Origin: Desulfovibrio legallii
GTDB lineage: Bacteria > Desulfobacterota > Desulfovibrionia > Desulfovibrionales > Desulfovibrionaceae
Assembly: GCF_004309735.1 (NCBI RefSeq)
Contig: NZ_SIXC01000004.1
Coordinates: 63,796-127,795 of the forward strand
Reading direction: 5' to 3'
DNA: 64,000 nucleotides
Numbering within the stretch: position 1 is the stretch's first letter; each line of letters begins with the position of its first letter. Positions 57,856-60,875 of this stretch are shown here, piece by piece. The notes under the pieces are model-generated. The model was not told the DNA's origin. It made no database searches and worked only from the letters and a program-made list of their open reading frames with translations. A program made the translations under genes and the position numbers.

Positions 57856-58155
57856 CTGGTCGGCTCTCCTTGGGTAGTCGCTTCCGCTCCAGGCGGAGGG
57901 ACAGCCAGTATAGACGTCTCCGACGCAAAAGGGAAGGCACTTCGGCAAGGGGTTGCTGCCGCATAATCATACTATTATAGTATTATTAAAATCATACTTA
58001 TCAAATTTTATTGGATTAAATGGTGCAATCAGGAATTTTTTGTGCTAGGCATAAAACATACCTGCTTGCTAAGATATGGCCGACAAAAAGATTGCGGCGC
58101 GTGTCGGGCAAGCCCTTCACGGCAGATTGCCTATTTGCAACCTTGGGTGAGGTTT
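57856..58155. promoter_or_regulatory. AT-rich divergent promoter region with a 7-1-7 palindrome
   Basis: The stretch 57960-58080 is sharply more AT-rich than its surroundings. ATACTATTATAGTAT at 57969-57983 is a perfect 7-1-7 inverted repeat. ATCATACT occurs twice, at 57966 and 57991, exactly 25 bp apart, so two regulator dimers could bind on similar helix faces. This is a good operator candidate for the SQR-like operon or asd. The regulator is not in the window. Confidence 0.55.
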
Positions 58156-59397
58156 ATGAAAAAACTGCTTATTCTTGGCGCCGGCGCCGGCGGGACCATG
58201 ATGGCCACGAAGGTGAGAAAGCTCCTGAGCCCACGGGAGTGGGAGATAACTCTCATTGACCGCGACCCCGTCCACCACTATCAGCCTGGCTGGCTGCTGG
58301 TGCCTTTTGGCGTGGATACGCCGCAGGGCTGCGTTCGCCCCAAAAAAGATTTTATGGTGCACGGCGTCAATTTTGTGCTGGACGCCATCAAGGCCGTGGA
58401 TGCGGAACACCGTAAGGTAGTCTGCCAGGAAGGCACTTATGACTATGACTGGATCATCGTGGCCACCGGGGCCAGAATCGCCCCTGAGGAGGTTCCCGGC
58501 CTCACGGACGACTGGGGCGGCAAGATCCATAATTTCTACACCCCCGACGGCGCGGCCGCCCTGTACGACAAGCTGAAGCATTTCAGGAAAGGGCGGCTGG
58601 TGCTGCACATCTGCGAAACGCCCATCAAGTGCCCGGTGGCGCCTCTGGAATTTGTGTACATGGCGGACTGGTATCTGCAGAAGCTGGGCGTGCGGCAGGA
58701 TGTGGAAATAGAACTGGTCACGCCCCTTACCGGCGCGTTCACCAAGCCGGTGGCCAACAACATCCTGGGGGCGCTCTGCGCCAAAAAGGGCATCAAGGTC
58801 ACCACCAACTGGAGCGTGGACAGCGTGGACGCGGGCCGCGCCGTGATCACGTCGGTGACGGGCGATGAAATTCCTTACGACCTGCTGGTGTCCATTCCGC
58901 CCAACCTGGGGCAGCCTTTCCTGGTCGAATCCGGCCTTGCCGACGTCACCGGCTATATTGATACGGACAAGGAGCTGCTCAAAGCGAAAAAGTTTGAAAA
59001 CATGTACGTCATCGGCGACGCCACCAATGTTCCGGCCTCCAAGGCCGGTTCCGTCGCCCACTTTGAGGCCGACGTCATTGCTCAGAACCTGATGGCGGAT
59101 ATCGAAGGCACGGACAACTACTACCGCTTTGACGGGCACACCAACTGTTTTATCGTTACGGGCTTTGAAAAAGCCTCGCTCATAGACTTCAGCTATGCCG
59201 TGGAGCCCTTGCCGGGCATGTTCCCCCTGCCGGGGGTGGGTCCCTTTGAGCTCTTGGGCGAAAGCCACATCAATTACTGGGGCAAGCTCATGTTCAAATG
59301 GGTGTACTACAACCTCATGATGAAGGGGCACGAACTGCCGTTTGAACCCAACATGTATCTTGCAGGGAAAGACACCTCCTTGCTGCGCAGCAAGTAG
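58156..59397 (+). CDS. sulfide:quinone oxidoreductase-like flavoprotein
   Basis: A 413-residue FAD-dependent protein of the SQR/flavocytochrome c family. Seen: GAGAGGTMMATKVRKLL (FAD loop, residues 8-24), YQPGWLLVPFGV, ATGARIAPEEVPGLTDDWGG, YVIGDATNVPASKAGSVAHF (second FAD motif) and a C-terminal membrane-contact part. Cys159 in ETPIKCPVAPLEF and Cys331 in TNCFIVTGF occupy the positions of the two redox-active cysteines that hold the sulfur bridge in SQR; the third cysteine of type I SQR has no evident counterpart (HNFYTPDGA at that place). A sulfide-, polysulfide- or thiol-linked reaction is therefore plausible but not proved. ATG 58156 follows GAGG. The DUF1641 gene starts 14 bp on. Confidence 0.85.
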   Translation: MKKLLILGAGAGGTMMATKVRKLLSPREWEITLIDRDPVHHYQPGWLLVPFGVDTPQGCVRPKKDFMVHGVNFVLDAIKAVDAEHRKVVCQEGTYDYDWIIVATGARIAPEEVPGLTDDWGGKIHNFYTPDGAAALYDKLKHFRKGRLVLHICETPIKCPVAPLEFVYMADWYLQKLGVRQDVEIELVTPLTGAFTKPVANNILGALCAKKGIKVTTNWSVDSVDAGRAVITSVTGDEIPYDLLVSIPPNLGQPFLVESGLADVTGYIDTDKELLKAKKFENMYVIGDATNVPASKAGSVAHFEADVIAQNLMADIEGTDNYYRFDGHTNCFIVTGFEKASLIDFSYAVEPLPGMFPLPGVGPFELLGESHINYWGKLMFKWVYYNLMMKGHELPFEPNMYLAGKDTSLLRSK

Positions 59398-59411
59398 CCC
59401 GGAGGCGTCGT

Positions 59412-60080
59412 ATGGCATCTGAAGACAAAATTCTGGAGCGTCTTGACGCTATTGAAAACAGGCTGGCGGCCCTGCAGGAACGCGGCGAAAACAGCCGCGC
59501 CCTTCTGGAACAGGCCGCGCCCATAGGCAACCACGCCTTCCGCCTGCTGGTTACGGAGCTGGAGTGTCTTAACGGCCGGGTTTCGCTGGACGACATCCTG
59601 GATCTGTGCCGCAAGGGGCTGCTCACCGTGCCCCGGCTCATCTGGCTGCTGGACCAGCTGGAGAACCTCACCGACCTCTGGCGCATTCTGCATCCTGCCA
59701 TGGGGCCGACCTTTCCGCATCTTATTGAAAAAATGGATGCATGGGACAAGAGCGGCCTGTTCGCCAACCTCGCCGCCTTCAAAACTGCGGGGGGGAACTG
59801 GCTGGCGGCCCAGAGCCCTGAAGATATTGCCAGGCTGGGAGAAAGCCTTGTCTTTCTGACCAGTCAGCTGCAAAAACTGGCCGAACCCGCCCTGCAGGCC
59901 CGCATCACGGCCTTGCTGGAGGCGGTGGCGTCTTATGATCCCGCCCAGGCCCGACCCACGGGCTTGCTGGGACTTCTGGCGGTTCTGCGCAGCGCCGAAG
60001 GCCGACAGTCTTTGGGATTTTTGGCAGAACTGCTGAAAACGCTGGGCAAAACCGCACCGCCGCAGGGAGCAGCCTCTTAG
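59412..60080 (+). CDS. DUF1641-like protein paired with the SQR-like gene
   Basis: A 222-residue helical protein with an N-terminal coiled-coil (DKILERLDAIENRLAALQER), then hydrophobic, Leu-rich helices (LDDILDLCRKGLLTVPRLIW; SLVFLTSQLQKLAEPALQAR; TGLLGLLAVLRSA). This matches the DUF1641 type found next to FAD-dependent SQR-like or formate-dehydrogenase genes in other prokaryotes. It may help the flavoprotein attach to the membrane or to a partner; function is unknown. ATG 59412 follows GGAGG. A family C palindrome starts directly after the stop codon. Confidence 0.8.
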   Translation: MASEDKILERLDAIENRLAALQERGENSRALLEQAAPIGNHAFRLLVTELECLNGRVSLDDILDLCRKGLLTVPRLIWLLDQLENLTDLWRILHPAMGPTFPHLIEKMDAWDKSGLFANLAAFKTAGGNWLAAQSPEDIARLGESLVFLTSQLQKLAEPALQARITALLEAVASYDPAQARPTGLLGLLAVLRSAEGRQSLGFLAELLKTLGKTAPPQGAAS

Positions 60081-60101
60081 GGCCTTGCAACTTTGCAATG
60101 G
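60081..60101 (+). repeat. Family C palindrome, copy C7 (minimal)
   Basis: GGCCTTGCAACTTTGCAATG follows the DUF1641 stop (60078-60080) with no gap. It is a diverged version of the TTGCAAC palindrome only. Confidence 0.6.
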
Positions 60102-60195
60102 CTCTGAAATCGGGACGGGCCGCGCCTGCGGCCGTGGTCGTGATGCCAAGGGCGCGGGTCCGTCCCTTTTTCCCTGTCGCACAAAGTCATCTGCC

Positions 60196-60224
60196 TTGCC
60201 AGGTTCGGGCCTTGCTGGCATACT
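60196..60224 (+). promoter_or_regulatory. Promoter placed for a leaderless HD-domain mRNA
   Basis: TTGCCA at 60196-60201, 17-bp spacer, CATACT at 60219-60224. The ATG at 60231 lies 6 bases after the -10, where transcription should start. No ribosome-binding site precedes that ATG. Confidence 0.45.
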
Positions 60225-60230
60225 CCGGTC

Positions 60231-60875
60231 ATGAACGCCGTCGGTTCCGCCACGCCTCCGGTCAGCCCGCTGTCCGCCCTGCCCTTTCTGCCGCAGCTCT
60301 GCGGCAAAAGCGGGGCCGCGCCCGGCGACGCGGCCTGTTTTGCCCTTTGGGACAAATACGCTATGTTGCCCAACATCCGGCGGCATTCCTTGCTGGTGGC
60401 CCACATCGCCACTACTCTGGCCCGCAAGGCCGAGGCTCTGGGCCTGCCCGTGCGGGCGGCGCAGGTGCGCGCCAGCGCTTTGCTGCACGATATCGCCAAA
60501 ACCTACTGCGTCCGTTACGGCGGCAGCCATGCCCAGGTGGGCGCTGCCTGGACCGTGGCCGAAACCGGCAATTACGCCGTGGCCCAGGGTGTAATGCTGC
60601 ACGTCTGGTGGCCTTGGTCCCTGCCGCAGGGAACGGACATCTGCGCTCTGCCCTTTTTTGTCATGTATGCCGACAAGCGCGTGCGTCACGACGCCTGCGT
60701 CACCCTGGAAGAGCGCTATGACGACCTCCTCCAGCGCTACGGCCGCACCGAGGAAGCCCGCGAAGGCATCCGCGCCGCCTACAGGCAGGGCAAAACCATT
60801 GAAGACGCCCTTGCGGTGTTGCTGGGATGGTCCTTGCATGAAGATTCTTTTGATAGCGGGCGGCTGGTCCACTGA
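60231..60875 (+). CDS. HD-domain phosphohydrolase
   Basis: A 214-residue HD-superfamily protein. Seen: a first metal histidine in NIRRHSLLVAHIATTLARK (about 50-65), the HD pair in ASALLHDIAKTYC (about 86-87) and a final aspartate in VMYADKRVRHD. The size and HD signature fit small metal-dependent phosphohydrolases of the YqeK-like or tRNA-related type, but no substrate can be named. It overlaps ddl by 38 bp, so the two are translationally coupled. The start choice rests on the promoter position. Confidence 0.82.
   Translation: MNAVGSATPPVSPLSALPFLPQLCGKSGAAPGDAACFALWDKYAMLPNIRRHSLLVAHIATTLARKAEALGLPVRAAQVRASALLHDIAKTYCVRYGGSHAQVGAAWTVAETGNYAVAQGVMLHVWWPWSLPQGTDICALPFFVMYADKRVRHDACVTLEERYDDLLQRYGRTEEAREGIRAAYRQGKTIEDALAVLLGWSLHEDSFDSGRLVH

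Follow-up and report, generated by a model that had tools for sequence, protein, structure and literature searches.

An SQR-like flavoprotein and its DUF1641 partner as a candidate two-subunit sulfide-oxidising enzyme in the sulfate reducer Desulfovibrio legallii

What use would a sulfide-making bacterium have for a sulfide-oxidising type of enzyme, and what is the DUF1641 protein encoded directly behind that enzyme for? We addressed these questions for a 64,000-nucleotide stretch of the Desulfovibrio legallii genome (the window), in which an earlier note on the same DNA had singled out a sulfide:quinone oxidoreductase (SQR)-like flavoprotein gene and its DUF1641 neighbour (Table 1). The host genome (2.68 Mb in 35 contigs) yielded a single match each for SQR and DUF1641, and the closest named relatives of the window SQR were found in two Desulfovibrio MAGs (88–89% identity). 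The note's premise that the host is a sulfate reducer was borne out by dsrA, recovered on the same contig as the pair, outside the window. The enzyme is no peculiarity of this host: it belongs to a known family and was present in 62 of the 199 Desulfovibrionaceae genomes sampled. The reading that we favour, with a probability of roughly 0.65, is that the pair forms a two-subunit sulfide/persulfide:menaquinone oxidoreductase that feeds quinol oxidases, disposing of self-made sulfide when oxygen is met.

Table 1 Features of the SQR–DUF1641 locus, in window coordinates
Feature	Coordinates	Strand	Basis
Dyad ATACTATTATAGTAT, candidate operator upstream of SQR	57969..57983	.	Related blocks in genus copies
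SQR-like flavoprotein, 413 aa, Cys form of NCBIfam NF049943	58156..59397	+	ORF, profile, structure match
Cys59 codon TGC, family-conserved	58330..58332	+	Column counts
Cys159 codon TGC, first redox cysteine (IKCPVAP)	58630..58632	+	SQOR alignment
Cys331 codon TGT, second redox cysteine; TGA (Sec) in some relatives	59146..59148	+	SQOR alignment
C-terminal helix, residues 371–388	59266..59319	+	Predicted secondary structure; region aligns with human SQOR
DUF1641 (ForE-like) partner, 222 aa	59412..60080	+	PF07849; ForE1 8rqz E 0.0084; SQR adjacency
DUF1641 core region, residues 180–213	59949..60050	+	PF07849 match
Terminator-like stem-loop (weak) after DUF1641 gene	60150..60165	+	Stem-loop scan

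The locus and its flavoprotein

The DUF1641 reading frame begins 14 nt downstream of the SQR stop, spacing from which we infer that the two genes form one operon. Both were under purifying selection (dN/dS of ~0.03 for SQR and ~0.16 for DUF1641, between loci L063 and L064), which, together with the frequency of the pair in Desulfovibrionaceae, argues that it is not a relic. An aspartate-semialdehyde dehydrogenase gene lies 5′ of the pair on the opposite strand, and 3′ of it are genes for a protein that resembles the C-terminal part of the DVU_1551 NTP transferase model at a score under its cut-off, a D-alanine–D-alanine ligase and a glycosyltransferase-like protein; no functional link was seen between the pair and these flanking genes. 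AT-rich blocks related to the dyad ATACTATTATAGTAT occur in the region 57969–58155 and are kept upstream of nine SQR copies of the genus. A genome scan for the dyad at up to three mismatches returned five hits, two of them both strands of the site itself and the other three each with three mismatches, so that the dyad was not found elsewhere in the genome at zero to two mismatches; because the hits match the level of a reversed control pattern (four hits), no regulon is assigned. No sigma-70-like promoter was found on the plus strand ahead of SQR, and terminator-like sites within 57900–60300 numbered 7, against a shuffled mean of 3.1. In two relatives, a small protein gene sits directly 5′ of SQR (L070:4346-4765 and L087:4492-4902); judging from its N-terminus, the product resembles an Rrf2-type regulator.

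The flavoprotein matched NF049943 ('type III SQR, selenoprotein subtype') over positions 1–406 of 406 at 639 bits (cut-off 525), and no other profile model reached its cut-off (the runner-up scored 55.8 of 310); the SQR half of the pair thus belongs, in a Cys form, to a family that already has a name and a publication. Its closest solved protein by sequence (phmmer) was human SQOR (8dhk, E = 1.4 × 10−42). Of its six cysteines (59, 90, 153, 159, 208 and 331), Cys159 and Cys331 match both conserved cysteines of human SQOR in the phmmer alignment, which places IKCPVAP opposite VKCAGAP and TNCFIVTG opposite TSCPLVTG, in agreement with the earlier note's claim that the sulfur-bridge pair of SQR is kept. 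In a set of 70 distinct sequences (≥50% identity, the window SQR among them), Cys occupied position 159 in all 67 that have the column, whichever residue followed; position 331, present in 69, held Cys in 60 sequences, a TGA in 8 and Tyr in one, and position 59 was Cys in 63 of 67 (the window's counted); the residue following 331 was Phe in 60 of 69, and is Phe332 in the window SQR. The third cysteine of type I SQRs lies ~32 residues ahead of the first active-site Cys in the Aquifex enzyme. There is no Cys within residues 91–152 of the window SQR, so this third cysteine is absent, as the earlier note had suspected and as is likewise the case in human SQOR, and a type I assignment is ruled out.

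The predicted structure pointed the same way. An AlphaFold model (pLDDT 87.8) has the fold of a flavoprotein with two dinucleotide-binding domains, of which SQRs are the closest solved relatives: a fold search gave human SQOR at Z 49.3 (TM 0.87, 393–395 residues), ahead of type I SQRs (Z ≤ 41.6), flavocytochrome c (≤40.8), NDH-2-type proteins (≤37.6) and the ferredoxin-reductase-type proteins listed (≤28.2). By analogy with known SQRs, the predicted helix at residues 371–388 may provide membrane contact and quinone access. In a tree that included no reference type III sequence and carried a long-branch warning (L062, L088 and L097 among the branches concerned), Desulfobacterota and haloarchaeal SQRs were split from ten proteobacterial SQRs by a branch with 100/100 support; six changes to selenocysteine in this tree were disregarded, since the 'U' labels that L094 and L095 bear arose artefactually, from alignments overrunning the SQR stop. 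Sequence, fold and phylogeny, the last among the checks that the earlier note had named, together support an SQR-like protein.

Selenocysteine at the second redox position in relatives

A phylum-wide search found SQR over the cut-off in 28 of 395 genomes (33 copies), with one in-frame TGA in 9 of the 33, whereas none was found among the 66 over-cut-off copies of the Desulfovibrionaceae search. The TGA fell exactly at the Cys331 column in all nine TGA loci examined at residue level (five of the nine phylum-search copies, one fragment and three loci from another collection). The window SQR itself is ruled out as a selenoprotein by its TGT codon at this position, and has HTNC where NF049943 has the selenocysteine of its HxxU motif. 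In the alignment, the Sec column of the relatives falls on the second sulfur-bridging cysteine of SQOR, which supports a redox role for Cys331.

The gene selB was found in all 18 genomes tested, the window's included, and seven of the nine TGA loci share a hairpin (CGAGAAGGGGUCCCUUCUCG) that starts 17 nt past the UGA and has a GGUC loop (two of them, L046 and L081, being identical in sequence there), the other two (L069 and L072) having different hairpins. A GGUC-loop hairpin soon after the UGA is the form expected of a bacterial SECIS. Hairpin energies at the TGA loci deviated from shuffles by z of only −0.7 to −1.7, compared with −0.45 to 0.69 in six of seven Cys-form controls and −1.11 in the seventh (L040), and the hairpin is therefore SECIS-like by form, not by energy. 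The Cys-form SQR L040 still has a hairpin closely resembling the SECIS-like one found in its TGA relatives and possibly represents a recent Sec-to-Cys change.

Cys and TGA forms also occur side by side: one genome (G426, which includes L034) has one Cys-form and two TGA-form SQRs, and two others (G466 and G521) have one of each, which suggests selenium-dependent and selenium-independent SQR isoenzymes. The single Tyr (TAC) at the Cys331/Sec column belongs to the SQR of an Olavius algarvensis Delta 4 symbiont MAG (L087:5001-6251), in which the motif around it is otherwise intact. A type III SQR that is a selenoprotein and has an HxxU motif was published earlier (PMC13188914); what the alignments add is the coincidence of the Sec column with the column of the second sulfur-bridging cysteine of SQOR.

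The DUF1641 partner and its pairing with SQR

The partner matched PF07849 at 25.5 bits (cut-off 21). Its predicted model (mean pLDDT 47, pTM 0.19) includes a long N-terminal helix, itself a low-confidence prediction, and hydropathy revealed no transmembrane (TM) segment (19-residue Kyte–Doolittle maximum of 1.17), which speaks against a TM protein. By inspection, both the SQR and its partner seem to be without a signal sequence, so the reaction would be cytoplasmic. When a profile of SQR-linked partners was compared with the PDB, the formate dehydrogenase subunit ForE1 (8rqz) was the only match below E 0.05, a weak one (E = 0.0084 over 119 positions; the next, unrelated hit had E = 0.12). Two features of a ForE-type menaquinone subunit were present, namely weak profile kinship to ForE and a gene next to that of a redox catalytic subunit. 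In two relatives the partner is longer, with 282 aa in L081 (L081:6275-7120), where the alignment indicates an internal duplication, and the same length in L046.

Within Desulfovibrionaceae, the two genes were tightly paired. With a DUF1641 profile built from SQR-linked partners (A2; threshold E = 1 × 10−6), DUF1641 was found in 62 of the 199 Desulfovibrionaceae genomes, exactly the 62 with SQR (60 over the cut-off and two with copies split at contig ends); because A2 was built from such partners, other DUF1641 proteins may be missed in this count. DUF1641 lay downstream on the same strand, at 30–79 nt by match coordinates, in 67 of the 69 SQR matches (66 over the cut-off plus three fragments with E = 1 × 10−51 or better, generic flavoprotein matches of ≤50 bits having been dropped), and the two matches with no adjacent DUF1641 were contig-end fragments. 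Among fetched loci with at least 50% identity, DUF1641 was downstream in 74 of 76 rows (three of them the window itself), at ≤21 nt or overlapping in 73 of the 74 and at 333 nt in one; the exceptions were an upstream placement (L072) and a locus interrupted by a run of N (L075). Downstream searches detected no DUF1641 for 12 more distant SQR homologues (≤42% identity), eight of these loci having been searched over their whole length as well, and a Chloroflexota SQR homologue also lacks it.

The pair recurred in haloarchaea, to whose plasmids 24 of the 25 matches listed (of 213 records) belonged. By annotation, five of the six plasmid regions read contained the same pair, with a 133-aa hypothetical protein in the place of DUF1641 in the sixth; a TusA gene preceded the pair in three regions, and cydA and cydB followed it in two, giving the order SQR–DUF1641–cydA–cydB in Natrialba magadii and Natribaculum luteum. 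The tight pairing in relatives of the window SQR suggests a two-part sulfide-to-quinone enzyme. A Caldivirga type III SQR is reported to be functional when produced on its own in Escherichia coli, so the DUF1641 partner may not be essential to SQR. On the whole, the DUF1641 protein looks like an electron-transfer mate of SQR: the earlier suggestion of a membrane or electron-transfer mate is favoured in its second half by co-occurrence, adjacency and ForE kinship, and is not supported by hydropathy where a TM membrane mate is meant.

Published DUF1641 proteins offer a possible function. In Bacillus subtilis, ForE is the partner subunit of the formate dehydrogenase ForC and is predicted to have no TM helices; without ForE1, ForC1 was no longer active in the formate:menadione assay and had lost most of its bound menaquinone. 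ForE also affects the integrity of ForC (PMC8808070). A review citing structure 8RQZ describes lipid-occupied cavities at the ForC–ForE interface (PMC13397495). A DUF1641 gene is listed first in the operon of a Parageobacillus Huc-type (group 2a) hydrogenase (PMC12976888). The common thread, we infer, is a soluble or monotopic dehydrogenase coupled to menaquinone. Two Ignicoccus proteins with consecutive locus numbers, one a DUF1641 protein and the other an FAD-dependent oxidoreductase, were up-regulated (PMC3149612). On sulfide ore concentrate, Sulfobacillus thermotolerans increased SQR 5.8-fold and the neighbouring DUF1641 protein, whose function was called unknown, 2.2-fold (PMC7409299). 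SQR–DUF1641 adjacency has thus been in print once, for Sulfobacillus (PMC7409299), whereas the other papers found to mention DUF1641 alongside a quinone oxidoreductase deal with NADH dehydrogenases. The DUF1641 literature, as far as covered here, proposes no quinone role for an SQR-linked member, and neither a ForE-like quinone subunit as the partner nor one-to-one pairing across a bacterial family was put forward in it.

These data also bear on an alternative that we consider unlikely, in which SQR works alone, as do other two-cysteine SQRs, and DUF1641 assists its folding, stability or docking at the membrane with no quinone role. Compatible with it are the predicted C-terminal helix that the window SQR keeps for itself, the Phe beside the second redox Cys, where the SQR of A. 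ferrooxidans has a residue of its quinone site (PMC9666304), the effect of ForE on ForC integrity (PMC8808070) and the existence of homologues with no detected DUF1641. However, a one-to-one pairing in 62 genomes that recurs in haloarchaea and Sulfobacillus exceeds what an occasional helper would need, and ForE1 is reported to be necessary for menaquinone reduction by ForC1 (PMC8808070).

Oxygen, quinones and comparison with known systems

For the two-subunit oxidoreductase, a four-step scheme can be drawn. Following SQR chemistry, sulfide would attack the Cys159–Cys331 sulfur bridge, reducing FAD, with the sulfur presumably released as persulfide or polysulfide. Reduced FAD would then pass its electrons to menaquinone at a C-terminal quinone channel, in which the Phe next to Cys331 (Phe332) is preserved. 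If ForE is a guide, DUF1641 would stabilise the complex and help to deliver menaquinone at the membrane surface or retain it there. Finally, cytochrome bd could reoxidise the menaquinol, such that part of the cell's own sulfide would be disposed of and oxygen scavenged together.

The ability of sulfate reducers to oxidise their own sulfide with oxygen has long been reported, and the distribution of oxygen reductases is consistent with such a role for the pair. cydA (cytochrome bd) is present in the window's genome and in 183 of the 199 Desulfovibrionaceae genomes (61 of 62 SQR-bearing versus 122 of 137 SQR-lacking, P = 0.024), so nearly universal that it discriminates little. Haem-copper oxidase was more unevenly distributed, occurring in 40 of 62 SQR-bearing and 26 of 137 SQR-lacking genomes (odds ratio 7.8, P = 6 × 10−10, phylogeny not removed), a link confounded by phylogeny; within genera, the odds ratio was ~4.1, from few informative genera, and the window's own genus had none (0 of 16 genomes). 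NapA was found in 0 of 199 genomes (TIGR01706 at E = 1 × 10−200), an uninformative result, because other kinds of nitrate reductase would escape such a threshold. Taken with the haloarchaeal cydAB neighbours, the association with oxygen reductases favours quinol oxidation by these enzymes, and hence favours, but does not prove, oxygen-linked sulfide disposal as the role of the pair. A bd-quinol oxidase and a cytochrome oxidase of Desulfovibrio vulgaris have been studied at low oxygen (PMC4383621). Another reading, that the enzyme works in reverse or on a different sulfur compound, with menaquinol or a thiol as the reductant for polysulfide, persulfide or a low-molecular-weight disulfide, seems improbable: the host makes sulfide (dsrA), the flavoprotein is weakly similar to CoA-disulfide reductase models (far under their cut-offs) and the TusA sulfur-carrier genes beside haloarchaeal pairs suggest sulfane sulfur handling, but against it stand the SQR-type fold with both cysteines (Z of 49.3 for SQOR versus ≤28.2 for ferredoxin-reductase-type proteins) and the cydAB genes by the pair in two haloarchaea, which point to quinone reduction, not quinol use.

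Beyond the two-subunit oxidoreductase of the window, a broader generalisation is tentative, at somewhat less than even odds: that in Desulfobacterota and haloarchaea the type III-like enzymes always need two subunits, an SQR and a ForE-like DUF1641 protein, that DUF1641 is a general quinone adapter on unrelated dehydrogenases (formate dehydrogenase, SQR and, by its operon, Huc-type hydrogenase) and that Sec at the sulfur-bridging residue makes a seleno-SQR complex in some lineages. For DUF1641, still labelled as being of unknown function, this would mean that quinone coupling is a shared, testable role not confined to formate dehydrogenase; for sulfate reducers, the pair is a specific candidate, of two genes, for oxidising self-made sulfide with oxygen. 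The reading of the partner as a ForE-like subunit, with family-wide one-to-one pairing, makes a clear biochemical prediction, and natural Sec/Cys variants at a sulfur-bridging residue within one family, and even one genome, are ready tools for studying SQR chemistry.

Among known systems, human SQOR (type II; 8dhk and 6oi5) has a fold in common with the window SQR (Z 49.3) and two aligned redox cysteines, and differs in sequence (25% identity); it is mitochondrial, uses ubiquinone and, to our knowledge, has no DUF1641 partner. NF049943 is matched at full length far over its cut-off and with the same HxxC/U motif (HTNC), the window having Cys in place of Sec, and the printed row for this family is silent on a DUF1641 partner (PMC13188914). 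Desulfurivibrio alkaliphilus likewise has an SQR in a bacterium with a sulfate-reduction gene set, although there the SQR is treated as type I and growth is by sulfide oxidation with nitrate (PMC5516251). Nearer to the pair as a whole, the ForCE system of Bacillus subtilis (ForE being YjgD/YrhD; ForE1 in 8rqz) likewise joins a catalytic subunit to an adjacent DUF1641 subunit, is menaquinone-linked and is without TM helices, whereas ForC is a molybdenum/Fe–S formate dehydrogenase unrelated to SQR and ForE1 is only distantly similar to the window DUF1641. In Sulfobacillus thermotolerans, SQR and DUF1641 are side by side as in the window, with both products up-regulated, a likeness by published description, in which the partner differs in having 335 aa and lying on the 'upstream' side (PMC7409299). 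The haloarchaeal pairs of an FAD/NAD(P)-binding oxidoreductase and DUF1641 differ in identity (33–39% among the matches listed) and in their neighbours (TusA before the pair in three, or cydAB after it in two, of the regions read), and have the window's pair and gene order, on the same side of the 100/100 branch.
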